Assembly (NCBI RefSeq): GCF_000215935.2
Contig: NZ_AFNU02000001.1
Coordinates: forward strand, 496,001-560,000
DNA: 64,000 nucleotides
Direction: 5' to 3'
Origin: Haloplasma contractile SSD-17B
GTDB lineage: Bacteria; Bacillota_I; Bacilli_A; Haloplasmatales; Haloplasmataceae
Shown: piece by piece, positions 13,209 to 31,662 of the stretch
Position numbering within the stretch: position 1 is the stretch's first letter
Layout of the letters: every line of letters starts with the position of its first letter
Made by a program: the position numbers and the translations under genes
The notes under the pieces: model-generated
Database searches by the model: none
What the model saw: only the letters and a program-made list of their open reading frames with translations
What the model was told of the DNA's origin: nothing

Positions 13209-13736
13209 TTATTGTACATTATCAGTTGTAATTGTAGTAGAATCAACGGCTTGTGAAACATCACTTGTAGTATCTCCAGTTGTAACATCTTTACCACCAT
13301 TTAAATATACTTTAAAATTATATGTTCCAGTATTAGATGTTTTTTCAATTAATACATAGCCATCAGTATATCCACCGTACGGATCCGAATTAATAAATGA
13401 TGACGGCAAATACCCTTCATCAATTAAACCTGAAATAGTGATTTTAACATGTGTAGCGGTTGTAGGTGTTGTTGATACGTATGAAGTCGTCTCATAATTA
13501 GTTAAATCTGGAGTAACAAAATCAATATCGCCACCTAAATCTTCATCGTTAGCAATAGCAAAGTTTCTTGCAGCGGATACTGCTGTATTTGCATTCTCTA
13601 CAGCTGTACGTTGTTTTGAGTTATCTATTAGTTTTCCTACTGACGGTACTGCAATTGCTGCAATAATACCTAAAATCACAATTACTGCCAGTAATTCCAT
13701 TAGTGTCATACCTTTTTTATTTAATGTTTTAATCAT
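13209..13736 (-). CDS. Type IV pilin, major subunit paralogue 1
   Basis: A 175-residue pilin: leader MIKTLNKKG, then MTLMELLAVIVILGI with Glu5. AAGGAGGAG precedes the ATG, the strongest ribosome site in the locus, fitting an abundant protein. The soluble domain is rich in Thr, Ser and Asp, typical of glycosylated or calcium-rich surface pilins, but neither is shown. It stands first of the tandem pair, after pilC, and a recent duplication explains the almost identical N-terminal half of the next gene. Confidence 0.93.
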   Translation of the reverse strand: MIKTLNKKGMTLMELLAVIVILGIIAAIAVPSVGKLIDNSKQRTAVENANTAVSAARNFAIANDEDLGGDIDFVTPDLTNYETTSYVSTTPTTATHVKITISGLIDEGYLPSSFINSDPYGGYTDGYVLIEKTSNTGTYNFKVYLNGGKDVTTGDTTSDVSQAVDSTTITTDNVQ

Positions 13737-13891: not shown

Positions 13892-15112
13892 TTACATACC
13901 ATAACCTGAATCCATTAAACCGTACATTGGAATCATAATGGAAAGGACAATGGTTCCTACAATTAACGCTAAAAAGATAATCATAAGTGGCTCAAGTAAC
14001 GTTTTAAGTCGTTCTACTTGCGAATCCATCTCCCGGTCGTAATATTCGGCTAATGAATTCATCATTTCGCCTAGTGTAGCAGTCTCCTCACCAATCGATA
14101 ACATTCTAGCAAATACAGGGTCGACTGCCCATTGATCGGAAAAGGCTGCACTTATTGGAATACCGTTTTGGATGTTGTAAAGAGACTTGTCTAGGACATC
14201 CTGATAGACATCATTTGTAATAATGTTTCGTGTAATCTGTATCGATTCAATGGCATTAACGGAATTATTAATTAAGGTAGCTAGTGACCGTGATAAGCGA
14301 ATAATATTCCCATTCTTATTAATATTCCCGAATATAGGCACCTTTAGAGCAAATTTACTAAAAAAACGGTGACCTTTTTCGGTTTTTTTATACATATTGA
14401 TTAAGACAGCAACAGCGGCTAAACCTAACCCTACTAATAATCCACTTGTTTTAAAGAATGCACTGACTTCTAAGACAAACTTTGTAATCATAGGAAGTTC
14501 CTGACCTGCACTCTCAAATGTTTTTTGAAACTGAGGAACAACAACAATCATCAAGAATATCGTTACAGCAACGGTAACTACGAGTAATACAATTGGATAT
14601 AACATCGCTGATCGTATTTCATTTGATGTCTTTGTTTGTTTTGTATAATACGTTTCTAAATCATCGATTACGGGTGTTAATTCTCCAGTTGCTTCCCCAA
14701 TACGAATCATTTCTACTAATAAATTAGGAAAGACCTTCCGATGTTCTAGCATAGATAGATAAAGAGACGTACCATTACGAAGACTATGTAGAATTTTTAA
14801 CAATACCTTTTGAAGGTTCTTATTCGTTGTTTGCTCAACGATAATACGAAATGACTCCATGACCCCTACCCCAGCATGTAAAAGTTTTGATAATTGAGAT
14901 AGAAAGAACACTAAATCTTTACGACTAATTTTAGAACCTAAGCTTAGCTCTAGGTCTTTATATAAAAATGCAAATCGAAGTTGTTCAACTTCAATTGGTG
15001 TTAAATCTAATTTTTTTAAGCGATTAATCGCTTCTTTACGGCTATACGCCTCGATTACATCACTTACTTCATATATATCTTTACTACTTGCTCGATATCG
15101 ATAGAACGGCAA
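13892..15112 (-). CDS. pilC: PilC pilus assembly platform protein
   Basis: Polytopic inner-membrane platform of the GspF family, 406 residues, with two T2SF domains (about residues 60-185 and 265-385), each followed by membrane helices. Conserved MIRIGEATGEL and SIGEETATLGEM motifs are visible. A TTG at 15112 is preferred: GTGGGGTG lies six bases upstream and the protein then begins MPFYRYRA, the usual PilC start; a GTG at 15121 overlaps that ribosome site. It directly follows pilB. Confidence 0.94.
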   Translation of the reverse strand: MPFYRYRASSKDIYEVSDVIEAYSRKEAINRLKKLDLTPIEVEQLRFAFLYKDLELSLGSKISRKDLVFFLSQLSKLLHAGVGVMESFRIIVEQTTNKNLQKVLLKILHSLRNGTSLYLSMLEHRKVFPNLLVEMIRIGEATGELTPVIDDLETYYTKQTKTSNEIRSAMLYPIVLLVVTVAVTIFLMIVVVPQFQKTFESAGQELPMITKFVLEVSAFFKTSGLLVGLGLAAVAVLINMYKKTEKGHRFFSKFALKVPIFGNINKNGNIIRLSRSLATLINNSVNAIESIQITRNIITNDVYQDVLDKSLYNIQNGIPISAAFSDQWAVDPVFARMLSIGEETATLGEMMNSLAEYYDREMDSQVERLKTLLEPLMIIFLALIVGTIVLSIMIPMYGLMDSGYGM

Positions 15113-15129
15113 TTCATTCACCCCACTCT

Positions 15130-16785
15130 CTAAATAGATGTTACACGAAGGACTTCTTCTGTTGTAGTAACACCATCAATCACTTTTTGGAATCCATCTT
15201 GAATCAAGAATTTCATTCGTTGATTCAGTGCAACTTTTTTGATTTCCATATCACTGCTATTTTTATTAATTAAATCACGGATGACGTCATTAATTTCTAA
15301 GATTTCAAAGATTGCCACTCGACCTGAATATCCTTTTTGGTTACAGGATGAGCATCCCTTCGGCCTAAATACCTTTTCAATCATCATACCGGAATCTCTA
15401 AATAACTTTCTTTCACGCTCTGTTGCAGGCTCCCACTCACCACATTCTCGACAAGTACGACGCACTAAACGTTGTGCGACTACTCCAACTAAGGAAGAAG
15501 ATACTAGAAATGGCTCTATTCCCATATCCGTTAGTCTTGTTACTGTACCGATTGAGTCATTTGTATGGATTGTACTTAATACAAGGTGTCCTGTTAGTGA
15601 GGCTCGAACGGCGATTTGAGCCGTTTCTACATCTCGAATCTCTCCAACCATGACAATATTGGGGTCTTGCCGTAGAATTGACCGTAGACCACTAGCAAAA
15701 TTTAATCCAATTTCTGAGTTAACCTGTATCTGATTTACTCCCTTTAATTGGAACTCAACAGGGTCCTCAATTGTAATAATGTTAACATCTTCTTTATTCA
15801 ACTCATTTAAAGACGCATATAAAGTAGATGATTTCCCGGAACCAGTTGGTCCTGAGACTAAAATAATTCCATTAGGATTACTGATTAGTCGTCTTAACGT
15901 TTTATAGTTGTCTTTACTTAGTCCTAATTTTTCGATATTCCCTAATGTATTTTTTACATTTAATAATCGCATAACGACTTTTTCGCCGTTTACTGTAGGG
16001 AGTGTCGAAATTCGCAAGTCAATCGGGACTTTATCGATGGAAGCTTTGATTCGTCCATCTTGAGGACGTCTTGACTCCGTAATATCAAGACCTGATAAAA
16101 CCTTAATTCTTGAAAGAAGCTGTTTCTCCATTACCTTAGGAAATCGCTTCTCCACATTCAAAACACCATCTACACGGAATCTTACTAACACCTCATTCTC
16201 GTGAGGATCAATATGGATGTCCGATGCATCCTGTTTCACGGCACTTAAAAGAAGCTGATTCACAAGTCGAATTAATGGTGTGTCATCTTGATCTTCTTCT
16301 TGACTCTTGTTTTTCTTCTCAGCATAGTTATGGATAATTTGGTCTAGCGACCGATCAATTCCATAGTGTCTTGATATAGCGGTTTCAATCTCTGATTTTG
16401 GAGCCATGACTAATTTAATCCCATAACCGGTAAGAAGTCTAAGATCATCAACTACATAGTAGTTTAATGGATCTGCAATTGCTACGACTAGCTTTCCGTC
16501 TTCAAACGCTAGCGGAACAACAGCATTTTGACGTGCATAATCCTCAGATATCAAGCGTAAAATAGTTTCATTTAACATATAGTCAGATAACGAAACTTTC
16601 TTAATCCCAAGTTGAAGGGCCAGGGCATCCATAACTTGATTTTCAGTCACGTACCCGACTCGTATTAATGTATCTCCTAGCTTTTCATCTGTTTCTTTAA
16701 GTGTTAAGGCAGTCTCAATTTGATCTGGCCTAATTAAACCAGCATCAATTAAAATATCCCCTATTCGTTTCTTTACTCGTTTCAT
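15130..16785 (-). CDS. pilB: PilB pilus extension ATPase
   Basis: Cytoplasmic hexameric ATPase for type IV pilus extension, 551 residues. The N-terminal MshEN domain (about 5-150) begins RIGDILIDAGLI and may bind c-di-GMP, as in MshE; the catalytic core has Walker A GPTGSGKSS at 312-320, the Asp box TIEDPVEF, Walker B and the His box. Zinc-binding cysteines 445, 448, 478 and 481 are present. GAGGTG precedes the ATG. No retraction ATPase PilT is encoded in the window. Confidence 0.96.
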   Translation of the reverse strand: MKRVKKRIGDILIDAGLIRPDQIETALTLKETDEKLGDTLIRVGYVTENQVMDALALQLGIKKVSLSDYMLNETILRLISEDYARQNAVVPLAFEDGKLVVAIADPLNYYVVDDLRLLTGYGIKLVMAPKSEIETAISRHYGIDRSLDQIIHNYAEKKNKSQEEDQDDTPLIRLVNQLLLSAVKQDASDIHIDPHENEVLVRFRVDGVLNVEKRFPKVMEKQLLSRIKVLSGLDITESRRPQDGRIKASIDKVPIDLRISTLPTVNGEKVVMRLLNVKNTLGNIEKLGLSKDNYKTLRRLISNPNGIILVSGPTGSGKSSTLYASLNELNKEDVNIITIEDPVEFQLKGVNQIQVNSEIGLNFASGLRSILRQDPNIVMVGEIRDVETAQIAVRASLTGHLVLSTIHTNDSIGTVTRLTDMGIEPFLVSSSLVGVVAQRLVRRTCRECGEWEPATERERKLFRDSGMMIEKVFRPKGCSSCNQKGYSGRVAIFEILEINDVIRDLINKNSSDMEIKKVALNQRMKFLIQDGFQKVIDGVTTTEEVLRVTSI

Positions 16786-16808: not shown

Positions 16809-18011
16809 TTATGATTCTGTATTGATCCCTATTTCAATGATTGTTTCTTTTGGCATATAAATATCTTCATTAATTACTTCAATTGAATGATTATGGTACG
16901 TTTCATCATTATGCTTTGATACGATTCGTTTGACTAGAATGCTGTAACCTTCATACCCAGGAATCGCTCGCTTTCGATCTGGGTCTAGTGTTTTTACTTC
17001 GCGAATAATTGTTTTAGGCTCCATGATTTTTACATCTGTTACAATGGTAATTGAATTAATAAAGGGTGGCCCACTTAGTGTGAATATTAACTTATTAGAG
17101 TCCTCAGCTATAGTTATATAAAAAGAATATGGATTAGGATTATAAAACGTCATATCTTCTTCATCATAATAAGAAACCTTAGCCTCATACCCTTTTTGAC
17201 TGTAATAAGGAAGCGTCACTCCTATATGTTTATCAATATTCGTAAAGTTGGTCTTTAAGATTAACGAATAAAGACCCGTTCCAATTATGCTTAATTCTTC
17301 ATCACTAAAAACAGGTTGTACAGTTGATTCATCCAAGTCCCCCGTCGTTCCGTCTGGAATAATTGCATACGTTTCGAGCAATGAAAATTGTTCAGTCGGT
17401 CTAATTTCCATCTTGGTTAAACCATGACCTCTTAACGTGGCCATAAGTTGTTTCACTTCTGTTTCTGTTAGTGAAAGTTCTACTGTATTAAGGTCTTTAG
17501 CAAGTGTCGTATAATCATTTATGTAATCACCTATATTGATTGCATCTTCTAATTTTAAATCGGCCGCATCCTGTAGTAGTGCTTCCTTTAATTGTTGTTG
17601 ATCAATCGTATTTAACAGTTGAGGATCAGTAGCATTCGCATAATCTGTTATCATTTTATTAAATACATCATCTTCTAAGGAAACTTTCAGTCTATTATGC
17701 CTTCCATTTTGAACAGTATCAAGTGATTCAGCTACATTAAATTTGAATAACATAGGATCAATTGGTTCTTCATAATCTTGATAATTGAGTGTAACAGTTG
17801 CATTCTTCTTCCAATTCACGATTTCATTCTGAATACCAGTAAACGATTGGTTATAATTTTTTCCCCCAATGTATACATTTGCGATTGTTGTATCCATTCC
17901 ATACGTTGTAAAATTACTGATATTAAAGGCAAAATAAACTAGCCCACCAGTAGTAATGGATACGGTTATAAAGATAATAATAATTAATGGTAAAATCTTC
18001 TTATTATTCAT
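16809..18011 (-). CDS. Exported VanW-like protein, first gene of the pilus operon
   Basis: A 400-residue protein with an N-terminal membrane anchor (about residues 8-30). The middle resembles the YoaR-type putative peptidoglycan-binding domain. Residues about 235-320 match the last part of a VanW domain: LYSLILKTNF, YYSQKGYEAKVSYY, then FYNPNPYSFYITI. The front of the VanW domain, including the usual NR-x-x-N-I and C-Q-x-S-T elements, appears lost. A C-terminal part with GYEGYSILVKR and a DIYMPKETIIEIG end is as in VanW-family tails. TAGGTGG lies five bases before the ATG at 18011. Its place before pilB suggests a role at the cell wall during pilus passage; this is inference. Confidence 0.6.
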   Translation of the reverse strand: MNNKKILPLIIIIFITVSITTGGLVYFAFNISNFTTYGMDTTIANVYIGGKNYNQSFTGIQNEIVNWKKNATVTLNYQDYEEPIDPMLFKFNVAESLDTVQNGRHNRLKVSLEDDVFNKMITDYANATDPQLLNTIDQQQLKEALLQDAADLKLEDAINIGDYINDYTTLAKDLNTVELSLTETEVKQLMATLRGHGLTKMEIRPTEQFSLLETYAIIPDGTTGDLDESTVQPVFSDEELSIIGTGLYSLILKTNFTNIDKHIGVTLPYYSQKGYEAKVSYYDEEDMTFYNPNPYSFYITIAEDSNKLIFTLSGPPFINSITIVTDVKIMEPKTIIREVKTLDPDRKRAIPGYEGYSILVKRIVSKHNDETYHNHSIEVINEDIYMPKETIIEIGINTES

Positions 18012-18108
18012 AATTTCCACCTACTCTTATATATCGTTGTGTGGTATAATTAACTATATCATTACTATTATACATTATTTTTTTTCAAAAAGAAAGGTTG
18101 TACATTTT
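18012..18108. promoter_or_regulatory. Divergent promoter region of the two pilus operons
   Basis: This 97-base gap separates the leftward pil operon from the rightward minor-pilin operon, so it must carry start sites for both. It is AT-rich with several TATAAT-like boxes, but no -35/-10 pair with good spacing could be assigned with confidence. Confidence 0.5.
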
Positions 18109-18720
18109 ATGAATTCAAATAAAACATTAAATAATTCAGGTGCTTCCTTAATTGAAATTGTCGCTGCTATAGCTATTTTGTCGATTACCAGTTTAATCAT
18201 TATAAACATGCTATTTAGTAACATGAGACGTGATCAAGCGAATCAAGAAGAAGCAGTTCTAACGAATGTGGCTAGCAGTTCAATCAACTACATTAAATCT
18301 ACGGATTTTCAAACAATATATGATTTGTTACAAGCTGAAATCAATCATAATAAACCTTACTATACGATTAATAAAGATACCTGTGATGAACTATTTGAAT
18401 TCAACCAAGACGAAATTAATATATGTCGCCAGGTATTAGGACCTACTGTCAACAACCAGACCTATAATGAGAAACGATTGAATATTTATATCTTTCCCTA
18501 CAACAATGAGAGTCACATCGATTATTTGCAAAACAGTGTAACTGAAGATGAGTTTCCTAACGTTGTGGATCGTTATTTAGCGGATTTAACTTATAATGTA
18601 GACAAGGTTGATTTAGACACTTACATGGTTCGAGTGGTCGTAGTAGCAGAATCAAAAAAACTAGGCAATAATGATGTATTGTTAGAGGGGGTCATGGTTG
18701 ATGAAAACTTTAAAGACTAA
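18109..18720 (+). CDS. Minor pilin, PilV/GspI-like
   Basis: A 203-residue protein with leader MNSNKTLNNSG, cleavage before ASLIEIVAAIAIL (Glu5 present), then a helix and a mixed alpha/beta domain. AAAGG lies 11 bases before the ATG; an open frame continues upstream but would place 51 residues of AT-rich spacer before the leader. The phrase SLIEIVAAIAIL is like PilV/GspI minor pilins. Two cysteine pairs may occur (DTCDEL and NICRQ). First gene of a three-gene rightward operon of minor pilins. Confidence 0.8.
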   Translation: MNSNKTLNNSGASLIEIVAAIAILSITSLIIINMLFSNMRRDQANQEEAVLTNVASSSINYIKSTDFQTIYDLLQAEINHNKPYYTINKDTCDELFEFNQDEINICRQVLGPTVNNQTYNEKRLNIYIFPYNNESHIDYLQNSVTEDEFPNVVDRYLADLTYNVDKVDLDTYMVRVVVVAESKKLGNNDVLLEGVMVDENFKD

Positions 18721-19342
18721 TTCTGGTTTTTCATTAATGGAACTGCTAGCATATATTGCAATTGTGGGACTAGTTATTATTCTTTTAACAGCGACATTCA
18801 CTTTTGTAATAAAAACTTACACGGACATCAATATTAAAGGTCGTGTCTATACAGAAGCAAACTATATCATGTCATCGATTTTATCAGCAACCAATTCGTT
18901 TGATGCAGATTATGTGAGAACGTGTGAAGATAATAGTTATAACTGTATAGAATTAGTCAAAGAAGACGAGTTAATCATTGATGCTGAGTCTGGAGTCATT
19001 AAAGACAAAAAAGTGAACGAAACGCTAATCATACAGCTCAAACAACATGAAGGTTCAGATGGTTATGACCTTTTTATTAATAATACAAAAATTAACTCTG
19101 ATGCATTTTTATTAAAGGTAGACCCTAATCAAACGGACCCTCACGATCTAGATCCTGAGTCTCGAGAAGATGACGCTTACACCTATATTCATATCAACTC
19201 TTGCTTTGATAAAAATCAAACAATAAACAACGACAATGGGATCTGCCAAGATGCTGTTATAGAAATAAAATTAAGTATTTTTAGAGTTAATCAGACTCAT
19301 AACGAAGTACCTTATCGTTTTATAAATCGTATCACATTCTAG
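18701..19342 (+). CDS. Minor pilin, PilW/GspJ-like
   Basis: A 213-residue protein with leader MKTLKTNSG and cleavage before FSLMELLAYIAIVG (Glu5 present). The start overlaps the end of the previous gene by 20 bases; GAGGGG lies 10 bases before the ATG at 18701 and 7 before a TTG at 18698. The soluble domain holds four cysteines (VRTCED, YNCIEL, NSCFDK, GICQD) that could form two disulfides outside the cell. Size and order (second of three) resemble PilW/GspJ. Confidence 0.8.
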   Translation: MKTLKTNSGFSLMELLAYIAIVGLVIILLTATFTFVIKTYTDINIKGRVYTEANYIMSSILSATNSFDADYVRTCEDNSYNCIELVKEDELIIDAESGVIKDKKVNETLIIQLKQHEGSDGYDLFINNTKINSDAFLLKVDPNQTDPHDLDPESREDDAYTYIHINSCFDKNQTINNDNGICQDAVIEIKLSIFRVNQTHNEVPYRFINRITF

Positions 19343-19354
19343 GAGGTCGTGACT

Positions 19355-21094
19355 ATGAACAATAAAAAAGGATATATACTCGTTCTTGTTCTCGGGTCAG
19401 TTGCCGTTATGCTTTTTCTAGCATCTACCCTATATAACTACACATCGACGAGAACCTTCTGGACCTACAAACATACTAAAAAAATTACGGATGTTGCGAG
19501 CGCACGGTCAGTCGTCGATCAGATTGCCGCTGACATTGAACATTCTCTCTACTCGTTTCGAAATACAGAAGGAAAGTTGATGAATGAACTACATACTGAC
19601 TTCTATAATTATTACACGACAGATCTCGTTCCCTATTATTCGAATCTATATTGTGAACCAAATGAGGAATGTATTAAAATAAGGGATTTATCGATCGAAT
19701 CGTGCAATTATAACGATGGTCTAGTAGATCCGTGTTATACAAGCAATTCCTATTCCTATGCCTATGAAATAGTCTATGAAGATGACGTTGTTGCCACTAA
19801 AAAGTTTTTTGTATCGATGATTCCATCCTTTCTACAATTTGCGCTTGGATCATCTACTGACATTACGATAAACGGTGGTGCTTATATTGATGGGAATATC
19901 TACACAGGACAAGACTTTTATCTAAGTGATGTAGCAAACTACATCAAGTCAGGTCAGTATAATACAGTTGAAACTGTAGCTCCTACGGTTTCACAGTCTT
20001 CAAATCTGTTTTTGGGTCGTGACTTTAACTATTGTAAAGACTCTACTTCTAACCCCTGTTATACGATTGATACAAAGTTTAATACCAATGAATCAGCATT
20101 TATAACCTCATCGAATACTATTGATTACCAAAATGCCTTTCACACGAGTTATCCAAAAGTCATGAATTACAATCAGAATTTTTTAGAGGTTGATTATGAA
20201 AAATCTTATATTTATTACTTAAGAAAAGCAGCAGGACAAAGTAGTACGAGTTATATATATGATGATTTTAAAACCTACGTCAATTCTTTAATTCAAGAAT
20301 ATAGTACAAACGGAAATTATTACGTAGCAAATTCTATAGCAGACATCAGTGACCAACAAGAAAAATCGGTCATATTATCAACTGATTATCGAATCACATT
20401 TAATAAGGATATCCAGTTTAATAAGGATCAATGGATTATCATTGATGGGGACCTTTACATTGAAAATTACTTTAATGAAGAGATTACGATTGATGCAAAT
20501 ATTATGGTGACTGGAAACGTCGTCATCACAGGAAACGTTGCATTTGACAGTACCATCTATTCCCTAGGACTTGGATTAGTCCATGGTGCCAATATTAAGG
20601 GTGTAAATACCAGTCAATTAATATTATTAACATACGATGATCTAGAGTTTTCTGTCATCAATACACTTGAAAATGATTTCGTAGACAAAGTCTGTAGAGA
20701 CCCCTTCTCTACTACAAACGAATGTTATTACAATTATGAACCGGATTTAAAAGGATTTTTCTTTACAAATGAGAAAGCTGCATTTTATGGAGTTGCATCT
20801 TACATCAATATAGAAGGTGGAATTTATACAAAGGATACAGAAAATCTATTTAAATCACCAGATGATCTAACTAACTACACAATTTCTGATACAGATTCTA
20901 TTGGATTGTTAATTAACAGTTATCGCGGTAGTGTGACGGAAGAAAATGATGCTTTTCAGTTCTCACCCTCATCCGTTTACACGAAATCACGAGTAGTCAT
21001 CCGTCATAACCCATCCATTTTTAAGAATCTAAACCAAGGCTTACCGATTAATGATCAAGTTAATTATGCGTTTGAGAATACAATTGTACGATAA
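19355..21094 (+). CDS. Large minor pilin, PilX/GspK-like tip candidate
   Basis: A 579-residue protein beginning MNNKKG, with cleavage before YILVLVLGSVAVMLF; position 5 of the mature protein is leucine, not glutamate, as in GspK. AGGAGGT lies seven bases before the ATG at 19355. The soluble part is much longer than normal pilins. It contains Gly/Asn/Ile-rich stretches (ITINGGAYIDGNIYTG, IMVTGNVVITGNVAF) that look like a beta-helix or bactofilin-like ladder. Several cysteine pairs are spaced 7-10 residues apart (YCEPNEEC). It would cap the filament and could be an adhesin. Third gene of the operon; terminator follows. Confidence 0.75.
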   Translation: MNNKKGYILVLVLGSVAVMLFLASTLYNYTSTRTFWTYKHTKKITDVASARSVVDQIAADIEHSLYSFRNTEGKLMNELHTDFYNYYTTDLVPYYSNLYCEPNEECIKIRDLSIESCNYNDGLVDPCYTSNSYSYAYEIVYEDDVVATKKFFVSMIPSFLQFALGSSTDITINGGAYIDGNIYTGQDFYLSDVANYIKSGQYNTVETVAPTVSQSSNLFLGRDFNYCKDSTSNPCYTIDTKFNTNESAFITSSNTIDYQNAFHTSYPKVMNYNQNFLEVDYEKSYIYYLRKAAGQSSTSYIYDDFKTYVNSLIQEYSTNGNYYVANSIADISDQQEKSVILSTDYRITFNKDIQFNKDQWIIIDGDLYIENYFNEEITIDANIMVTGNVVITGNVAFDSTIYSLGLGLVHGANIKGVNTSQLILLTYDDLEFSVINTLENDFVDKVCRDPFSTTNECYYNYEPDLKGFFFTNEKAAFYGVASYINIEGGIYTKDTENLFKSPDDLTNYTISDTDSIGLLINSYRGSVTEENDAFQFSPSSVYTKSRVVIRHNPSIFKNLNQGLPINDQVNYAFENTIVR

Positions 21095-21100
21095 ATAACT

Positions 21101-21132
21101 AAAAGGAGAGATGAACGATCATCTCTCCTTTT
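21101..21132. terminator. Bidirectional terminator between the minor-pilin operon and the ankyrin gene
   Basis: AAAAGGAGAGATGA and TCATCTCTCCTTTT form a perfect 14-base stem with a 4-base loop, A-run on one side and T-run on the other. It can stop both converging transcripts. Confidence 0.88.
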
Positions 21133-22369
21133 AATTTTGCTCTATTTTATTCACTACTGCAGTCATTCCTTTTTCATTGGCAAGTTCTTTAGGACTTACA
21201 CCAGCATTATTTTCAATGTCTTTATTACCATCATGTTCTAATAGTAGTAAAGCGAGTTCCTCCCGGTCATACTTAATTGCAAACAGTAACGCAGTATTCC
21301 CTTCAAGGTCTTGCTGATTTACATCAATTGAAGTATTTTCAACTAGGTAACCTACGAGTTCACGATTATTTTGTGCGATTGCATAAAACAAACTAGTGTA
21401 TCCTTGGTTATTAACTGTATCTACGGGAGCGCCCTTTGCAATCATTTGATCAAACACATCAAATAGTGAATCTAAGTAGTCATCACTATCTACTGAAAAT
21501 TTAAATGCGCTTTGGAATGCAGTATCCCCGTATACATCTTTCAATGATAAATCAATATCATGTTCTAGCAAAGTCTTTACAATATTGAAAGATGCATTAG
21601 AAATTGCAAGATGTAAGACTGATTGTTTTTTTTGATTTTGATGATTTACATCTATATCATCTAACTGTAATAAGTACTCGACTAATACTTGATTTTGCTG
21701 ATTAACAGCAGAAAATAAGCAGTTATTACCTAGTTCATCTTGATCTTCTAAAGATGCTCCGTGTTCGGTTAATGACTGAATGATCCTTAAATCTGAGTTA
21801 GCATTTTTACATGCAAATAATAGAGGGGTTAATCCTTTATAACGTTTATGTACATCCATTTCCTCATAAGTTAAAAGGTCATTAACTACCACATCATTAT
21901 CAGCTTCAATAGCATTAAATAAAATTGAAAAACCACTCAGGTCTTCATTATTAAGCTCTGATGGAATATGGGAAACAAGTGTTAGAATTATTTGATTTAA
22001 ATCATCATTATTTACATTTTTATTATGTGCGATCAGATTTGCAAGCACATCAATCTGATGATTCGTTATTAAACTAAGATCATATCCATTCTCTAATAGC
22101 TGCCTGGCATGTTCTAGATCATTTTCTGCTACCAATAGTTCAATTATGGTAGTGCCATCTTCATAGGCAAAGCTAAGTTGTTTACCATTATTCATGTAAT
22201 CACGATAGTCATTGACCACTTGATTTTGAATGGACTTTCTTATTTGTTGTTTTTCTTCCTCGCTTATATGAGATGGTCGTATTATGATCCATACCCCTAA
22301 GCCGATTAATATAACAGCGAGTAAAATAAACCCTATATATACTTTATCGAACGACTTAACTCGTTTCAT
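21131..22369 (-). CDS. Membrane-anchored ankyrin-repeat protein (cassette A)
   Basis: A 412-residue protein: basic start MKRVKSFDK, one membrane helix (about 12-32), then eight to nine ankyrin repeats with typical motifs (GLTPLLFACK, GNNCLFSAV, GYTSLFYAIAQ, GNTALLFAIK). By the positive-inside rule the repeats would face outside, unusual for ankyrin proteins. GAGGTG precedes the ATG at 22369. It follows the giant secreted protein gene after a stem-loop and is the clear paralogue of the gene at 26846-27745. Ankyrin repeats bind proteins; the likely partner is the giant protein of the same cassette. Inference only. Confidence 0.82.
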   Translation of the reverse strand: MKRVKSFDKVYIGFILLAVILIGLGVWIIIRPSHISEEEKQQIRKSIQNQVVNDYRDYMNNGKQLSFAYEDGTTIIELLVAENDLEHARQLLENGYDLSLITNHQIDVLANLIAHNKNVNNDDLNQIILTLVSHIPSELNNEDLSGFSILFNAIEADNDVVVNDLLTYEEMDVHKRYKGLTPLLFACKNANSDLRIIQSLTEHGASLEDQDELGNNCLFSAVNQQNQVLVEYLLQLDDIDVNHQNQKKQSVLHLAISNASFNIVKTLLEHDIDLSLKDVYGDTAFQSAFKFSVDSDDYLDSLFDVFDQMIAKGAPVDTVNNQGYTSLFYAIAQNNRELVGYLVENTSIDVNQQDLEGNTALLFAIKYDREELALLLLEHDGNKDIENNAGVSPKELANEKGMTAVVNKIEQN

Positions 22370-22388
22370 ATGATTCACCTCAATTAAT

Positions 22389-22422
22389 ATTAGGTACAAC
22401 AACAATAGTCATTGTACCTAAT
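22389..22422 (-). other. Intercistronic stem-loop, cassette A
   Basis: ATTAGGTACAA and TTGTACCTAAT form a perfect 11-base stem with a 12-base loop between the giant-protein stop and the ankyrin-gene ribosome site. On the minus strand no T-run follows, so it looks more like an mRNA-processing or stability element, or a weak attenuator, than a terminator. A similar element occurs in cassette B. Confidence 0.75.
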
Positions 22423-22431
22423 TAAAATTAC

Positions 22432-25400
22432 TTAGTGACGATCCTCTTCTTTTAGTTCTACTGGATCTTCAATCGTTATAAAATTAATGTTTGTATATCT
22501 AGTTATTGTCTTTACAACTTCGTCATCTTCATTATATTGTGTAATTAAAGCGATAACTTCGACTACACCAGCTTCTGTAACCGTAAGTTGATCGAGTTCA
22601 GAGTTATAAGTTGCTATAGAATCTTGATCGACAATTGTAAACTCAATTGTTACTTGATCGAGTATGCTTGCCATATCAGGTATAATCTCTACTAATGGGT
22701 GTAGGCTAATTGATTCTGTCTTATTGACATTAAATTCATCACTAGTAAATCCAGAATCATCTGAAATTGTATTCTTTACATAGATGACTGAACGATACGT
22801 TTCACGCTGTCCATCTTCTGTAGTTACTGTAATTTCAATTGTTGCAGCTCCGGATTGAATCGCATCCACTCTTCCCGTTAACTCATCTACGGTCGCAATA
22901 TCTGGGTTTAATGATTTATAGTGAATAATAATTGCTTGATCACTATAATAAGGACTAATAGTCACTTCAAAGTCATCAAAGAGTTGATCTTCGTACAGTG
23001 TAACCTCAGATGGTGAAACGCTAGCAATTGTAGATTCCTTTACTGATACTATAGAAGTAGTAGAAATGAATTCCCCATCTTTATTATAACCTGTAAATGT
23101 AATAATCGTCTGTCCTGGTTTTAAACCTTTTACAGAGTATGTTGTGTGCTCCTCTTTAACGAATGAGATTACTGGTTCTTGACTTAGATTCCCCATTTGA
23201 TCTAGATGTTCTAATTTGACTTTAACACTATTCGTACTAATAACAGGGGTTACTACCAGGTCGAGTGATTGTTCCTCGCCAACGAGTAGATTTAAATCAT
23301 TAGTTGATAATGAATTTATAACTTCATATGTTGTGATTGGAATCGACTTTCTAAGTGTTTCTCCAAATACATCAGTTAAAACAATCTCTACTTCTTGTTC
23401 ACCCACATGGTATGGTGTTAAAGTTTCTTGGTTACTAATTATAAAACGGTTTGATAATTCTGAATCCTGATCTAGAATCGTCCCTAGATTAAACTGAACC
23501 TGTTTTAAATGAATATCAGGATTAAGCGTATATAAATCAGTTAATGTATAGGTTTCATTAAATGGTAAAAATACATCTTGTTTTAAATCAGATAGGGCCG
23601 CATCATCCGTAATTGAACGAAGTGCCGTTAAATCAATTCCAATAAATTGTTTAGAGACTAAATCATCCGTAATATCTGTAAATGAAAGCGTTGATTGATT
23701 CATTGAATAATTATGAGCAAGTTCTGTCATAAAATCGATACTAAACTTATAATGGCTATCATCAGGAATATAAGTATCATTTATTAGTGTGTATGGAATC
23801 GTTAAAACATCAGAGCTCACATTATAACCAGTTTCAACATTGCCAACAAGGTTAAATTCATTTGGAATAGTCATTACATCTATTCCTTCTGGAAATTCGT
23901 CTTTAAATTGTAAATTGGTTAAATGAATACGCTGAGGTAATTTATTTAGATGCTTCACATTACTAAAGTCCAATTCGTTAAACTTAATTGAGTAATCAAT
24001 CGTGTATTGTTTATTTAATTCTATATATTGGTTGTTAGTTAATTCATCAATAGACCTTGTGATGGTCACATAATCATTTAAGTTAGCGACAAATACAATG
24101 AATTCCTTCTTACGTGTACGCCCATCCTCATTTGTAACCGATAGACGAATCATTTTCTCCTCTACATCATTTGTCGGATTTGCTAGATCAGATAACGTGA
24201 TTGTCTTCTCTTGATTAGAAGAAATCGTACCTTCCTGCTTGATTTCATCATCTACAAATACCTTGTATGAATAATGTTTTCCCGTAAGTAGTGAATCTAT
24301 ATTAAAGTTAAAATTAATTTGATCATTTTGATCAATTATAGCATTCTCATAATCAGTTTGTTGATTTAAAGTATAGTTATCTATCACATCTACTTTTACT
24401 GATTTTGAAAACTTACTTAAATATGAATTTGTAATCGCATTAACTAGCAGTTTATGTTCTGTAGCGGTATACGTCTCAGATGCATTACTTCCGACATTAA
24501 GGTATACAACGTTATCCCTATAGGTGTAATACGAATTGTAGTAGCTATCACTTGGTTCTCTATACAAATCATTACTATTATACATTGTAAGTAATGGAAC
24601 AAACGAAGGATCATTTACATCCATTACATACGATTCGTTTTTAGTGTAATTAAGATTTTCAGGTATTGAGAGTGACTCATTCAGTAGATTGAATGGATAC
24701 ATCACATACGAACTCTTGTTCAATACGTTTAATCGATCAAAATCATTCATCAGTTCAAAGGGTGTCTTTTCTACACTTGTAAAGCCTAGTTTGTCATTAA
24801 ACGTATCTGACCAGTGGTGATGCCCATTAGTTAATTGGCCAGTAAAGATAAATGGCTTTCCGTTTTCTATTTCATCATCAAGTTTTCTGAACACATTCAT
24901 ATTAGGGTGTTTTTGATTAGAATAGATATCAGGTCCCATGATTATTACATCAAATTCATCCATAATCACTTTATATGAACACGTTGATTCTTTAAGTTCT
25001 GGAATAAGTTCAGTAAGATCAGAACTTATAGAATTTTTCTTAAAATCATTTATTGAACAGGTATGAATATTAATCATGTACTCGTCACTTTCAAAATAGT
25101 TGGTCATGTAATCGGTTGAATATAAAGTGTTTCGAAAATGAGTCGAGTCCGATAATACATTTAAAACTTTAATTTCTGTCTTTTGTCCCTTAAGTCTGAA
25201 ACGGTCATAATAATAGCTTGTCCCTTTTTCGTTCGTAACGACTAACTTCCAATTATATACGCCGCTGTATGTATCAGGAGCCTTTAGGGCAATCTCATTT
25301 AAGCCACTTTCTAAGTCCTGCTTGAATACTAATTCCTCTTTTATAAATTCAAGGTCATGATTAAAATCAAAATAAATCGACACATTTGATTGTTTAGACA

Positions 25401-26472
25401 GGTTTATAGAATATTCAAGTGGCTCTCCAATCGAATATAGATCTTGATCTGATTGGTAAGTGGGCTTTGATATTAATGAACTTATTGGTTTTCCCCGTTC
25501 ATATTGCGCTACTGTCATATAAGCAAGTACGTCTTGGTAAGATATACTATTCCCCTCTGACAATGAGTAGTCAGTTATATGTAAGTTGTTATATGCATTT
25601 CTAACATCATTAAAATAATGGTAGAAGTTGCTTTCATCATTGTGAAAAGCATCTTCGTGAATAAAGACAGGTTGTCCATTCATAATATATTCATTAAGAA
25701 TCTTCTCAGCCTTTGTTTCTGTTAAATCAGTAAACTCGGTTGAGAGAATATTGCACTGGTCGTCATTTGGTATATTAGTATTTTCATTGTTGTTTCCACC
25801 GTTTATATTACCGTGATTGCCGTTCCCATTACTACGACTCTCAGGTTTTTGATCATCATTATTAAAGCCCGTAAAGAACTTTGATACACTGTTCCAAAAT
25901 GTATTCCAAAAGTTCCCATTCGGTTCATTCACTTCCATGTGTTCATTAATTTTCTGTTCATCACAAATAACAAAGTTATTTGGGTTATAGAGACCAGCTG
26001 TGAAAAATAGTGCATCATACTGATTCTCTATTTGATCCCTTGATGAAACAAATTGCTTTATAGACATTGTCTCAACTGTAAAATGACCAAGATTATTAAT
26101 AAAATAGGCTGAGTTATTCTCTTCTAAACTGCCATAAAGGCTAGCTAATCGATTCAAACTACTAGATAGTTGACTTGATTCATTAGAATATAGAGTTGGT
26201 GTGATTTCTAATATGGAATAACTTCCTACTTCATCTGCATAGAAATCACTATAAGAATATTGATCCGTATCAAATACTTCATTAGCATTTGTTGCTAGTT
26301 CCGCTTGTATTGATTCGAATCGATTTTGATTATATAGCGTATTTGTATGATTTTCAAATGAATCAAATGATTGATCAGAGTAAGAAAATGCAGAAGCATG
26401 TTCTTGATTTAAATTATTAATTAATAAATTCAATGCTAGTACAATTACTAGACCCCTTAAAATAATCTTCAT
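22432..26472 (-). CDS. Giant secreted multidomain surface protein (cassette A)
   Basis: A 1,346-residue protein with a signal peptide (MKIILRGLVIVLALNLL, cut near HASA). Its N-terminal region (EILEITPTLY, YDALFFTAG, QPVFIHEDAF) and a later region at about 440-600 (IKVLNVLSD, YDVIIMGPDIY, KPFIFTGQLT) look like two related Rossmann-type domains, resembling DUF5057 proteins of Firmicutes. An Asn/Gly-rich linker lies near 215-240. The C-terminal half has Ig-like beta domains; two match bacterial Ig-like group 2 (SVSPSEVTLYED, GRVDAIQSGAATIEITV). No LPxTG or C-terminal helix is seen. GGGAGGTG precedes the ATG. Paralogue of 27829-31662. Confidence 0.8.
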   Translation of the reverse strand: MKIILRGLVIVLALNLLINNLNQEHASAFSYSDQSFDSFENHTNTLYNQNRFESIQAELATNANEVFDTDQYSYSDFYADEVGSYSILEITPTLYSNESSQLSSSLNRLASLYGSLEENNSAYFINNLGHFTVETMSIKQFVSSRDQIENQYDALFFTAGLYNPNNFVICDEQKINEHMEVNEPNGNFWNTFWNSVSKFFTGFNNDDQKPESRSNGNGNHGNINGGNNNENTNIPNDDQCNILSTEFTDLTETKAEKILNEYIMNGQPVFIHEDAFHNDESNFYHYFNDVRNAYNNLHITDYSLSEGNSISYQDVLAYMTVAQYERGKPISSLISKPTYQSDQDLYSIGEPLEYSINLSKQSNVSIYFDFNHDLEFIKEELVFKQDLESGLNEIALKAPDTYSGVYNWKLVVTNEKGTSYYYDRFRLKGQKTEIKVLNVLSDSTHFRNTLYSTDYMTNYFESDEYMINIHTCSINDFKKNSISSDLTELIPELKESTCSYKVIMDEFDVIIMGPDIYSNQKHPNMNVFRKLDDEIENGKPFIFTGQLTNGHHHWSDTFNDKLGFTSVEKTPFELMNDFDRLNVLNKSSYVMYPFNLLNESLSIPENLNYTKNESYVMDVNDPSFVPLLTMYNSNDLYREPSDSYYNSYYTYRDNVVYLNVGSNASETYTATEHKLLVNAITNSYLSKFSKSVKVDVIDNYTLNQQTDYENAIIDQNDQINFNFNIDSLLTGKHYSYKVFVDDEIKQEGTISSNQEKTITLSDLANPTNDVEEKMIRLSVTNEDGRTRKKEFIVFVANLNDYVTITRSIDELTNNQYIELNKQYTIDYSIKFNELDFSNVKHLNKLPQRIHLTNLQFKDEFPEGIDVMTIPNEFNLVGNVETGYNVSSDVLTIPYTLINDTYIPDDSHYKFSIDFMTELAHNYSMNQSTLSFTDITDDLVSKQFIGIDLTALRSITDDAALSDLKQDVFLPFNETYTLTDLYTLNPDIHLKQVQFNLGTILDQDSELSNRFIISNQETLTPYHVGEQEVEIVLTDVFGETLRKSIPITTYEVINSLSTNDLNLLVGEEQSLDLVVTPVISTNSVKVKLEHLDQMGNLSQEPVISFVKEEHTTYSVKGLKPGQTIITFTGYNKDGEFISTTSIVSVKESTIASVSPSEVTLYEDQLFDDFEVTISPYYSDQAIIIHYKSLNPDIATVDELTGRVDAIQSGAATIEITVTTEDGQRETYRSVIYVKNTISDDSGFTSDEFNVNKTESISLHPLVEIIPDMASILDQVTIEFTIVDQDSIATYNSELDQLTVTEAGVVEVIALITQYNEDDEVVKTITRYTNINFITIEDPVELKEEDRH

Positions 26473-26521
26473 CCTATACACCTCCCAAAAAATGGTAATA
26501 AATATAGTTACTAGTTATTCT

Positions 26522-26550
26522 AATTATAATATAAATAAATTATAATTACA
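26522..26550 (-). promoter_or_regulatory. Candidate promoter of cassette A
   Basis: On the minus strand TTGTAA (26545-26550) and TATAAT (26522-26527) are 17 bases apart, 50 bases before the giant-gene ATG. The region is very AT-rich, so chance matches are possible. Confidence 0.45.
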
Positions 26551-26650
26551 ATTTTAATAGAACGCTTTTTGTAAAAAAATTGATAATTATTGGAAAAAAT
26601 GTTAAATATGTGTATATTAATCGTTATTTTGTGTTTTTTGTATACTAAAA

Positions 26651-26680
26651 TAAAAAAAGTGACCTTATACAAAGTCACTT
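26651..26680 (-). terminator. Terminator of cassette B
   Basis: AAGTGAC (26657-26663) pairs with GTCACTT (26674-26680); on the minus strand the stem is followed by TTTTTTATTTTAG. It lies about 165 bases after the ankyrin-gene stop. Confidence 0.7.
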
Positions 26681-26792
26681 TTATTATTCGTTTTATAAGT
26701 AAAATCTGTTCGTATCGCCATAAACCTATTATTTCATCAAAGGATTCGCTTTTTTTATAATCATCAATGAAACACTACATTTAGGTCTTAAA

Positions 26793-26810
26793 ACTATACT
26801 AGGGTATAGT
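26793..26810 (-). terminator. Weak terminator-like hairpin after the cassette B ankyrin gene
   Basis: ACTATAC-CTAG-type loop-GTATAGT is a perfect seven-base stem with a four-base loop; on the minus strand only TTT follows. It lies 36 bases past the ankyrin-gene stop. Confidence 0.45.
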
Positions 26811-26845
26811 GGCTATAAATATAAACACTGTACGCTATCAGATCT

Positions 26846-27745
26846 TTATAATCTATTAGCTAATTCAATAAAATTTAATTCTATTGCAAGATCCTTAGCA
26901 GTTTGTCCTTCGTTATTTTGAATGGATCGGTTAATGTCTTGGCTAACTAGGTAATTTGCTATATCTAAATTAGTATAGATTGCATGATGTAAAATTGTAT
27001 CTCCATAATTATTCTGCGCATTCAAATTGACATCAGTATGTTCTATAAGATACTTTACTAGATTGAGTTGTCCAAAATCAATTGCAGCAAAGATACTATT
27101 ATTACCTTCAGCATCTTTAAATGAAGGGTCTGCCCCTTCTTCAATTAATCGTTCTATTAGTTCGATTTGTATATCTGTTGTTTCGCAAGCGACAAGTAAT
27201 GCTGTTGTACCATTATACGACTGATTTAGATCGATATCGTACTTTAGTATCTCGTTTACCACTTTCATATTGTTAGTTGATACTGCATTCATTAATAATG
27301 ACATTCCATAACTATCCGGCCTATTAAGATCGTCTTCGATCTGACTTATTAACGTATAAGCAAGACTATTAATATCATCATTATTGAAGGATTCATTAAA
27401 AAATATGACATTAGATACAGTATCTACCGGGTTATGCTCCTCAATTTTAGTCACATCGAAGCCCGTCTCTACAATTCGCTTTGCACCCTCAATATCATGT
27501 GCTTCAACTAAAATCTCGATAGGGGTTGTACCATCCGAAAATTGGAAGTTTAGCTCACTTCCTCTGTTTAAATAAATCTCGTACTCTTCTTTATTTCCTA
27601 ATAACATAGCTTCATATAACTCTTCTTGCTCCTCAACTGTTAATACGTTCTCTTCTAAAGCAGGGTTTAGAAAAATAAACACGCCAACTCCAATCATTAC
27701 TAGTGATAGACTTAAAAAGAAAACGAACACTAATTTTCTAAACAC
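26846..27745 (-). CDS. Membrane-anchored ankyrin-repeat protein (cassette B)
   Basis: A 299-residue protein, first helix at about residues 5-27 (LVFVFFLSLSLVMIGVGVFIF), then about six ankyrin repeats (DGTTPIEILVEA, YGMSLLMNAVS, GTTALLVACE, GNNSIFAAIDFG, YGDTILHHAIY). Its first 100 residues after the helix align well with the cassette A ankyrin protein, including D-G-T-T at the first repeat; it is shorter by about three repeats. The GTG at 27745 is in frame behind GGAGAG; an overlapping ATG two bases earlier leads to an early stop. It follows its giant partner after a 14-base stem-loop. Confidence 0.8.
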   Translation of the reverse strand: MFRKLVFVFFLSLSLVMIGVGVFIFLNPALEENVLTVEEQEELYEAMLLGNKEEYEIYLNRGSELNFQFSDGTTPIEILVEAHDIEGAKRIVETGFDVTKIEEHNPVDTVSNVIFFNESFNNDDINSLAYTLISQIEDDLNRPDSYGMSLLMNAVSTNNMKVVNEILKYDIDLNQSYNGTTALLVACETTDIQIELIERLIEEGADPSFKDAEGNNSIFAAIDFGQLNLVKYLIEHTDVNLNAQNNYGDTILHHAIYTNLDIANYLVSQDINRSIQNNEGQTAKDLAIELNFIELANRL

Positions 27746-27775
27746 ATTTAGTCACTCTCCTTTCCCCTTTATAGG

Positions 27776-27814
27776 GATACCCTATTAACTGATTACTATC
27801 GTTAATAGGGTATC
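27776..27814 (-). other. Intercistronic stem-loop, cassette B
   Basis: GATACCCTATTAAC (27776-27789) and GTTAATAGGGTATC (27801-27814) form a perfect 14-base stem with an 11-base loop. It lies between the giant-gene stop (27829) and the ankyrin-gene start (27745) in the same relative place as the stem-loop of cassette A, though the sequences differ. Confidence 0.78.
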
Positions 27815-27828
27815 TTTGTTATGTTAGT

Positions 27829-30800
27829 TTAATATTTTTCGCCATCATCATTGATCGGATCGGTTGGGGTAACAAATACAATTTGCACTGAATCCGATAC
27901 TGTATTTAACAAGTTAAGGTGTTCATCATAGTGTGACAAGATAACTTCTAGTTGGATAGTTCCTGCCTTTAACGGTGTTATTATACCTTGTGTTTGATCA
28001 AATAATACCACTTGATCAGAATCGATTACATTAAATTCAAGTATGACTTCATCTTCAATTGTACTCGGTTCAACTTTCACTAAATCTTCAAGCGTTACCG
28101 ACTCAGTTGTTTTAAACTCATACTCATTTTGTGTAAAGCCACTTTGGTCATTTATAACATCCTTAACAATTATGACTGTACTTATTTTTTCGACTAATAC
28201 GTTTGTAGCTTGATCATACAGTTCTATTTCGATTGTTGCTGAACCAGGAGCTAAAGCACTAACGATTCCGGTTGATTGAGTAATAGTGGCAACGGATTGA
28301 TTTAACGACCTAAACTCGATTCGATAGTCACCTGTATAGTTACATGTCACTTGATAGTCACTAAACTGTTGTGAAACATATAAGGTCGTAATGTCTGGTG
28401 ATACCGATAAATACGTTGGATTATTGACAGTTATCGATGCAGTAGATTCAATCAACTTTCCTTCTTTATTGTATCCACTAATGGTAACACTTGTTTTACC
28501 TTCTTTAAGACCTGTTACGTATAGTTGACCGTTATCGCTATACAAATCAACTACAGTCGGATCTTTAACACTGTAAGTTAAATTATTTAAACTGAGTATA
28601 GGATTCATATTAATTGTTAATGACTTAGTTTCTAATAGATTTAATCCTATATCATATATCGATAGTTCGCTTATTGTCTCGTATGTATAAATAGGAATTT
28701 GTTTTGTAACTTGATATCCAAACACATCAACGAATGTAATTTCAACTATTTGTTCACCAATTGCTTTAGAATATAACATTCGATCATTTATTTCAAATGG
28801 TGTTTGATTGTTATAAGAGTTCAATACCGTTCCTAAGTTATAATAAATGTCTTTTAGCACCACATCTTGATCAACTGTAAACAAACTAGACATGTCTATT
28901 GAACTATTGTATGGTACGAATAAATAATCCGTATAATGATCGATTATTGTGTGACTACTAATCGTTTTACTCGCTTCAAAATTAATATGATTAAACGATT
29001 GTGAAACGGTTTGATTTTGTATAGCATTAAACCTTAACGTACTTTGATTTAAAGTAAACGTATTCGTTTCTAGTGCTCTAAACGAGATGTCAAATTTATA
29101 ATCTGGATTTAAGACGATGTACTCCCCATTAATTAAAATAAGTTGAATATCATTAAACGTATGTTCAATTGTTGTACCCGTTAGATAGTCTCCTGTTTTC
29201 GTAAATCCGCTTGGAATAGACGTTATTTCAATGCCTACAGGAAATTGTTCTTTAAAACTAATATTTTTTAATATTATTTCAGTTGGTAGTTGCTCTTGTG
29301 ATGCTATATTACTGAAGTCTAATGCTTTAACATTAAAGTCATAGTCAATTATTTTTGTGTTATTTACTTGAATGTAGTCTTTAAACTGATGGGGTGTCGA
29401 ATCTAAATTTCGATTCATCTCGAAATAGTCATCGATGTCAGCCACGAATAAGTTAAATCCATAGACTGACTCATTCTTTTGTTCTTCATCACTTACAACA
29501 ACTCGAACATAAACTGAATCTACAGAATTTGCAGTAGGATTTGCGAGCTGATTAAGCGTAATCGTCTGTTGCTCATTACCTAAAGAAGTCCCCTCTTCTA
29601 CTTGCTGTTCATTAACAAATACTTTATATTGATAGGTCGTATTTGTATTTGTAGTAGTTGGAGTAAAATTAAAGTTAATCGCGTCAGTTTCATTAATTAA
29701 CGCATTTTCAAATGTGTTCGTTACGTTTATATTTAATGTTTCTTCTACAACTACCTCCGGAATCTGTTTTTCTGTTGTCAAATAGGTATTAACGATTGCG
29801 TTTGCCAATAATTTATGCTCAATATCTTTATACATTCGATAAGAATTATTACCTATATTTAAAAATGTTAAGTTATTACGTTTAGCATAATAAATATTAT
29901 TATAAGAATCAAATTGATCCTTTCTATTTAATTCTTTGTTATACATATTCATTAGTGGAATAAGATTTGGGTCTTCAAGGTCTAATTGATATTGTTCGTT
30001 ATATGAATAGTTAAGATCACTTGGGATTAGTAATTCTTCACTATTTATATTAAATGGATAGGATGAGTAGCTATTGTAATTAACTATTTCTAGATTATTT
30101 ACATTTTCACTAGATTCAGAGAAGTGAATTTGAAAATTAGTAAACAAAAAGCCTGAGAAATAGTCTAACCAAAATTTATGGCCCCGTGTCATGGCACTTG
30201 TAAAAATAATCGGTTTTCCCTCATCGATCTTTTGTTGAATCGAATTAAATACTTGGCGATTCGGATGATCATCAAAAATATCCTGTCCAAGTAAGATGAC
30301 ATCATACTCATCCATAATACGATAATGTGAACATGGATGTTTCGATTCATTCTTACTGTTTTTACTAAATTCTTTAATTGTACAGCTTTCTACTGTTATT
30401 TTATATTCACCATTGTTATTAAAATAAGCATCCACAAATTCATCTTCTAATAGATTATTACGATATTCAACCATTGATGACACGACATTTAGAACCTTTA
30501 TCTCTTTTGTATGTCCGCCAAATTTTATTAATCCACTCTTAGTAGCAGTAACTCCATTATGTTCAATCATGACTTTCCAGTCAAATACACCTGAATATAG
30601 TTCAGGAACGTAAAATGAGAAACTATTTGTTCCATTAACAATATCACTTGAATAGATTCGCTCATCATTGCTAAACGTATAATCACCTGTAAAGTCGATA
30701 TAGAAACTTAATTTCGCCTGAGAATAGTTTGTGAGATTGACTTCAAATTCAACTAGATCACCTTGATTATAGGTTTTTGTAGAATCTAACAGGTAGTCTA

Positions 30801-31662
30801 CTGGTTGTTTTGTTAATTCAAACTCTGGTTTCATATTATTAATTTGTATATATGCCATATATGCAAGCACATCTTGATAGAGATCATCTGTATTGTTATA
30901 ACTAACTTCAAACACATTCCCGTAGGTTAAATCAGAGCCCTTAAGTTTTTCATATAAAATACTATCAGGATAATTAAAAGCGTTACTATGAATGAAAACA
31001 GGCACACCTTTATTCATATACTGTTCTATGAGTTGATTCGCCTTTAAAACAGTAAGGTCATTTAAATTGTCTGTTGTATCAAGGTAAGGATCACAATAGC
31101 TCTCCCATTTTGGGCATTCTTCTACATTCTTAGGTGTATAATCCCCAGTTGTAAATATAATAGCATCATATTTTCCCTCAATGTCTTGTCTATTTGCTAC
31201 AAACTGCTTGATCGTCATGACCTCTAAATTAAAATTGCCCATATTTTGAATAAAGTGATCCCCTTGTAAGTCATAGGTAACAGTCATGTCCTGGTATAAA
31301 GATGTTAATCGGTTGAGAGATGAATATACATCACTAACCTCTATAAAGGGATCTTGATCATACACCTCAGGTGTAATTTCTAGTATGTTAAACTGTAATT
31401 CATTGTTAACAGCATTTTTCAAGTCTGTTGTCGTGTAGTTAGTACTTAGCTTTGTATTAATTAACCCTGTCATATTCGTGTAATACTCATCTTGATAGGT
31501 CAAATAATCTGACATCTGGGATTCAACTTGATAAGCATACTCTGAGAAGGTTTGATCAGTAAACGTTGAAGCATCGGCCTGGTGTGAAAATGCAATCATA
31601 CTTCCTATATAACTAATGATTACAACAATGAAAAGGTAACACAATTTTTTAAAATGATTCAT
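27829..31662 (-). CDS. Giant secreted multidomain surface protein (cassette B)
   Basis: A 1,277-residue paralogue of the cassette A giant protein. A signal peptide (residues about 5-28, ending HQADA) is followed by the same layout: ILEITPEVYDQ with YDAIIFTTG and VPVFIHSNAF, an Ig-like segment, then IKVLNVVSS with YDVILLGQDIF and KPIIFTSAMTRGH, and C-terminal Ig-like domains (SVSPDITTLYVSQ, GIVSALAPGSATIEIEL). The N-terminal Asn/Gly-rich linker of cassette A is missing. No sorting signal is seen, so it is released or held by another protein, perhaps the ankyrin protein. AGGTGG lies 12 bases before the ATG at 31662; a GTG at 31674 sits too near that site. Confidence 0.8.
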   Translation of the reverse strand: MNHFKKLCYLFIVVIISYIGSMIAFSHQADASTFTDQTFSEYAYQVESQMSDYLTYQDEYYTNMTGLINTKLSTNYTTTDLKNAVNNELQFNILEITPEVYDQDPFIEVSDVYSSLNRLTSLYQDMTVTYDLQGDHFIQNMGNFNLEVMTIKQFVANRQDIEGKYDAIIFTTGDYTPKNVEECPKWESYCDPYLDTTDNLNDLTVLKANQLIEQYMNKGVPVFIHSNAFNYPDSILYEKLKGSDLTYGNVFEVSYNNTDDLYQDVLAYMAYIQINNMKPEFELTKQPVDYLLDSTKTYNQGDLVEFEVNLTNYSQAKLSFYIDFTGDYTFSNDERIYSSDIVNGTNSFSFYVPELYSGVFDWKVMIEHNGVTATKSGLIKFGGHTKEIKVLNVVSSMVEYRNNLLEDEFVDAYFNNNGEYKITVESCTIKEFSKNSKNESKHPCSHYRIMDEYDVILLGQDIFDDHPNRQVFNSIQQKIDEGKPIIFTSAMTRGHKFWLDYFSGFLFTNFQIHFSESSENVNNLEIVNYNSYSSYPFNINSEELLIPSDLNYSYNEQYQLDLEDPNLIPLMNMYNKELNRKDQFDSYNNIYYAKRNNLTFLNIGNNSYRMYKDIEHKLLANAIVNTYLTTEKQIPEVVVEETLNINVTNTFENALINETDAINFNFTPTTTNTNTTYQYKVFVNEQQVEEGTSLGNEQQTITLNQLANPTANSVDSVYVRVVVSDEEQKNESVYGFNLFVADIDDYFEMNRNLDSTPHQFKDYIQVNNTKIIDYDFNVKALDFSNIASQEQLPTEIILKNISFKEQFPVGIEITSIPSGFTKTGDYLTGTTIEHTFNDIQLILINGEYIVLNPDYKFDISFRALETNTFTLNQSTLRFNAIQNQTVSQSFNHINFEASKTISSHTIIDHYTDYLFVPYNSSIDMSSLFTVDQDVVLKDIYYNLGTVLNSYNNQTPFEINDRMLYSKAIGEQIVEITFVDVFGYQVTKQIPIYTYETISELSIYDIGLNLLETKSLTINMNPILSLNNLTYSVKDPTVVDLYSDNGQLYVTGLKEGKTSVTISGYNKEGKLIESTASITVNNPTYLSVSPDITTLYVSQQFSDYQVTCNYTGDYRIEFRSLNQSVATITQSTGIVSALAPGSATIEIELYDQATNVLVEKISTVIIVKDVINDQSGFTQNEYEFKTTESVTLEDLVKVEPSTIEDEVILEFNVIDSDQVVLFDQTQGIITPLKAGTIQLEVILSHYDEHLNLLNTVSDSVQIVFVTPTDPINDDGEKY

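Follow-up and report, generated by a model that had tools for sequence, protein, structure and literature searches.

Two diverged giant-ankyrin gene units beside a type IV pilus cluster in Haloplasma contractile, with a possible role at the pilus tip

What might be the role of four consecutive minus-strand genes, arranged giant, ankyrin, giant, ankyrin, that occupy positions 21131-31662 of the 64,000-nucleotide stretch of Haloplasma contractile DNA analyzed here (the window)? All four ORFs are intact: the giant g1 (27829-31662, 1277 aa), ank1 (26846-27745, 299 aa, with a GTG start preceded by AAGGAG), the giant g2 (22432-26472, 1346 aa when started at the ATG that follows GGGAGGTG), and ank2 (21131-22369, 412 aa when started at the ATG that follows TTGAGGTG), with the starts at 31662, 27745, 26472, and 22369 backed by ribosome-binding sites. 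The original prediction described two units of like order and strand built from divergent paralogues, and BLASTP comparisons agree, with g1 and g2 being 35% identical over 1106 columns, nearly their full length (627 bits), and ank1 and ank2 likewise being 35% identical, over 280 columns (179 bits).

Unit 1 ends at an intrinsic terminator-like hairpin on the minus strand (26655-26682). Unit 2 is preceded on the same strand by a promoter-like site (26523-26551), for which the evidence is weak as shuffled sequences hold such sites as often, and is closed by a bidirectional terminator found on both strands (21097-21136), which lies between ank2 and a convergent PilX-like gene. Within each unit, the junction of the giant and ankyrin genes holds a strong minus-strand RNA hairpin without a long T run, at 27776-27814 for g1/ank1 (z = -4.4 against dinucleotide shuffles) and at 22389-22422 for g2/ank2 (z = -4.5). 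The former is a possible attenuator or 3' protector, and the two hairpins could set the ratio of giant to ankyrin product. The two are unrelated in sequence and are absent from the ankyrin-giant junctions of relatives. No structured RNA families were found, and no remnant ankyrin gene was detected in front of g1 or in the stretch separating the two units.

By inspection, the giants have one N-terminal hydrophobic stretch with an A-x-A-like site and no further hydrophobic segment, consistent with a Sec-type signal, and the prepilin leader motif G|xxxxE carried by the adjacent minor pilins is absent from all giants. In a six-frame search, g2 matched the Pfam model DUF5057 (PF16480) at 34.2 bits (cut-off 27.9), while ordinary hmmscan returned no DUF5057 match in the window giants; g1 is counted as a DUF5057 member only via its paralogue g2 and an hhalign profile comparison. 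That comparison, of the window giants to distant DUF5057 giants, gave a probability of 99.5 and an E-value of 2.9e-22 over 420 profile columns, and the motifs YDVILLG, YPFN, YQLNLED, and DSYNNYY are common, whole or in part, to both sets. The "DUF5057-like" label given to the giants in the original prediction thus holds, as does its mention of Rossmann-like domains, the second of which models as flavodoxin-like or class I amidotransferase-like with modest scores. A single-domain model of moderate confidence (pLDDT 68) retrieved amidotransferase/ThuA-like matches with Foldseek (E from 2e-3 upward, TM mostly 0.3-0.44), which we take as support for the fold only. Foldseek with the whole model of residues 35-745 yielded nothing but long alignments at a TM of about 0.1, which we judged meaningless. 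With moderate confidence, then, the DUF5057-like core contains an amidotransferase-like (ThuA-like) fold. Because no Cys or His in this domain is invariant across families, catalysis is unlikely, and the domain probably serves for binding. The C-terminal half has an Ig-like character and includes a Big_2 domain. Conservation peaks in the core (residues 400-640, mean identity 49-55%, compared to about 30% in the C-terminal half), and no VWA domain was found in the window giants. As a separate observation, MORN repeats, which are mostly known from cytoplasmic proteins, are absent from both window giants and present in the N-terminal part of all five other family giants with that part available (the incomplete giants of G002 and G007 being left out of this count). 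These insertions lie in the extracellular part and are flanked by two conserved cysteines (L009:14215-18387, L011:9854-14017, L013:12798-17066, and L015:12046-16197).

The ankyrin proteins score above the Ank_2 Pfam cut-off, at 115.5 bits for ank1 and 137 bits for ank2, the latter having more repeats. Both have the single N-terminal helix originally described, with basic residues ahead of it and the repeats after it, and by the positive-inside rule this arrangement would place the repeats outside the cell. The anchored ankyrin protein is therefore predicted to face outward, and it may help to dock the giant or pass it on. A large secreted protein followed by a small repeat protein could also suggest a polymorphic toxin with its immunity protein, as ankyrin proteins occur among immunity proteins and the window order of giant then ankyrin fits. 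We regard this as highly improbable: Pfam scans of the window and the family found no toxin domain in the giants, their C-terminal regions align to the end between the copies and across relatives with no swapping, as opposed to the exchangeable C-terminal toxin domain of such systems, and in relatives the ankyrin gene comes first. We rejected this candidate on the conserved C-terminus.

How far the pairing extends was assessed in eight Haloplasmataceae genomes (G000-G007, with G000, 3.40 Mb, being the window genome). A giant is encoded in all eight genomes of the order, once in seven and twice only in G000, so the two-unit duplication originally noted exists in the window and not in the seven other family genomes. 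Ankyrin and giant genes are adjacent in all six readable genomes, with a contig break intervening in G004; in G002 and G007 the contig stops at or within the giant. The order in G001, G003, G005, and G006, and likewise across the break in G004, is nfo - ankyrin - giant, with a hairpin after nfo and ankyrin-giant gaps of 26-84 bases, which is the reverse of the giant-then-ankyrin order in the window. The reversal can be read simply as repeated tandem duplications, with genes then lost from the ends. In trees, g1 and g2 are sisters (support 99/99), as are ank1 and ank2, weakly (73/88), which is compatible with the entire unit having been duplicated once, long ago, in the window lineage.

It had been proposed that the two proteins work as partners and that their trees should match. 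The trees are compatible, with giant and ankyrin distances correlating at r = 0.91-0.95, but giant and DEAD-box helicase distances correlate equally well (0.92-0.94), so the agreement mostly reflects the species tree, is no better than that of a housekeeping gene, and was rejected as proof of partnership. What speaks for a partnership is the adjacency throughout the readable family genomes, a pairing that is absent outside the family: no ankyrin gene lies beside the DUF5057 giants found outside Haloplasmataceae, in the genomes G012, G028, and G039. The ankyrin protein is thus a family-specific addition.

The original prediction missed the setting of the locus, which is an association stronger than the ankyrin pairing: the giant adjoins a type IV pilus (T4P) cluster in seven of seven testable Haloplasmataceae genomes. 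In the window, the gene facing the giant and ankyrin genes encodes a long PilX-like prepilin without Glu5 (19349-21094, plus strand, 581 aa), and it is preceded on the same strand by two minor prepilins with Glu5 at 18698-19342 and 18109-18720, the latter taken by inspection to start at an internal ATG before the prepilin motif. Beyond these, on the minus strand, lie a membrane protein weakly similar to VanW that is conserved in the pilus cluster (16809-18020), a PilB-type assembly ATPase (15130-16785), a PilC-type platform protein (13892-15121), two major-type pilins (copy 1 at 13209-13736 and copy 2 at 12616-13182, 57% identical to each other), and homologues of the prepilin peptidase PilD and of PilM, PilN, and PilO (9585-12517), the name PilD resting on similarity to the G012 and G028 T4P operons and the names PilM/N/O on conserved gene order and size. 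In every readable relative, the gene for the VanW-similar protein is likewise placed between pilB and the minor pilins. A few kb from the T4P cluster lies a further pilus operon, of the competence type (854-4679), with a ComGA-like ATPase at 3720-4679, ComGB-like and ComGC-like proteins, and small pilins.

The arrangement of the pilus cluster is the same across the readable family genomes: two minor prepilins and a Glu5-less prepilin of 554-673 residues lie downstream of the giant unit and converge on it, with the PilB, PilC, major pilin, PilD, PilM, PilN, and PilO homologues beyond. Glu5 is missing in 10 of 10 PilX-like proteins and retained in the minor pilins; PilX and GspK are known Glu5-less pilins (PMC7541494). 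In rate of divergence, the giants and ankyrin proteins also match the minor and PilX-like pilins, all being 29-39% identical to their window counterparts, compared to 61-67% for neighboring housekeeping genes. Two major pilins were found in G000, with no third copy in that genome, and one each in G001, G003, G005, and G006. Filament subunit and presumed tip module are thus both doubled in the same lineage, as expected if they work together, which is suggestive and not proof.

Outside the family, a search of 296 Bacilli genomes with the DUF5057 model matched only G012, G028, and G039, and each of these three giants is encoded within a T4P operon whose genes run pilO - minor pilin - PilX-like - minor pilin - giant - pilT, pilD lying downstream of these. 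The PilX-like pilin of G028 reaches the PilX_N cut-off, and the giant of G039 has a VWA domain (46 bits). A profile comparison of the Haloplasmataceae and distant PilX-like proteins showed that only the N-terminal helix is shared. All three genomes are among the 17 of 288 with pilT above the cut-off (chance about 2e-4, with two of the three sharing one genus). No DUF5057 giant was found in the stretches read of the other pilT-bearing Bacilli clusters (G174, G290, G194, G112, G187, and G201), of which that of G194 instead encodes a pilin bearing a carbohydrate-binding module. Clostridia are likely to hold further DUF5057 proteins.

The pilus genes could be mere neighbors of a cell-surface protein, a surface layer or adhesive coat anchored via the ankyrin protein. 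The pair does have its own transcription unit and terminators, and Big_2/Ig-like domains are common in surface adhesins, but distant homologues without an ankyrin gene sit inside T4P operons and every readable relative retains the link between giant and pilus cluster, making such a coat protein unlikely. A different relationship to the pilus genes is raised by pilT, for which no match above the curated cut-off was found in the eight Haloplasmataceae genomes, with six candidates scored per genome. A T4P-like machine without detectable pilT, with a GspK-like tip pilin lacking Glu5, could act as a type II-like secretion system that exports the giant as an effector with the ankyrin protein as a membrane-bound chaperone; the giant carries a Sec signal, and PilY1 has been compared to type II secretion substrates (PMC7541494). 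We give this explanation little credence, as there are two major pilin copies, the distant homologues have pilT, implying retractable pili, and monoderms lack an outer membrane for which such a step would be required.

The giant is instead most likely a non-pilin tip adhesin or effector of the T4P, PilY1-like in action and not a member of the PilY1 family, a reading to which we assign a probability of roughly 55%. Counted in its favor are the T4P linkage, the Glu5-less PilX-like pilins, the cross-family giant homology, the co-occurrence with pilT, the like pace of divergence, and the doubled major pilin. Counted against it are the lack of any match to the PilY1 beta-propeller or a PilY1 structure, of a VWA domain in the window copies, of ankyrin genes outside the family, and of pilT above the cut-off within it, together with the limited likeness of the family and distant PilX-like proteins and the fact that the family giants are convergent to the pilin genes and do not form one operon with them.

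Under the tip adhesin or effector model, each unit would encode a large non-pilin effector that caps the T4P from the neighboring cluster, jointly with the Glu5-less PilX-like pilin and the pair of minor pilins. The giant, after export through the Sec route, would be mounted on the PilX-like pilin, prime assembly, and act as the adhesive or sensing tip, and the membrane-anchored ankyrin protein, with its repeats outside, would most likely hold the giant at the membrane or hand it over there. With the tip module and major pilin both doubled in the window lineage, two kinds of pilus or tip may exist. More tentatively, we suggest an unrelated monoderm counterpart of PilY1: a DUF5057 giant carried on a PilX-like pilin, served by a dedicated ankyrin protein in Haloplasmataceae, and, in the window lineage, duplicated along with the major pilin so that two alternative pili result.

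If true, a second, unrelated tip solution would reveal which tip components a pilus cannot do without, DUF5057 would gain its first function, and extracellular ankyrin repeats partnering a pilus component would be new within the literature searched. It would also explain a conserved, unannotated locus of the Haloplasma group, which is known for its contractile cells.

DUF5057 has no function on record and is not named in the literature searched. According to published work, monoderms lack the giant tip effector PilC/PilY1 and are thought to rely on modular pilins instead (PMC9934059, PMC10191384), and the giants described here occur in Bacilli. Like PilY1/PilC of diderm type IVa pili, they are very large, secreted, non-pilin proteins with a type I signal, encoded beside minor pilins and a Glu5-less PilX, and one distant homologue (G039) has a VWA domain (PMC7541494, PMC13190605). 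The slot of the distant giants, after the PilX-like and minor pilins and before pilT, is the position of pilY1 in diderms. Several paralogous modules in one genome, as in the window genome, are also found in Myxococcus xanthus (PMC7541494, PMC13190605), which has three minor pilin/PilY1 clusters (PMC7541494). In contrast to PilY1/PilC, the window giants have an ankyrin partner and the giants have DUF5057/amidotransferase-like and Ig-like domains in place of the PF05567 beta-propeller, for which Pfam scans returned no match in the window, the family, or the distant giants; no PilY1 structure was among the PDB sequence matches either. We therefore liken the giant to PilY1, on gene position, size, signal type, and one N-terminal domain, without filing it as PilY1. 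The Streptococcus sanguinis pilins PilB and PilC can also be likened to the giants in carrying adhesion modules (VWA, Ig-like, and lectin) on a monoderm T4P (PMC8179133, PMC9934059), but those are pilins with a prepilin leader, unlike the Sec-type signal of the giants. Also among the closest known relatives are the DUF5057 (PF16480) proteins themselves, whose core is homologous to that of the giants and which are here tied to T4P clusters.
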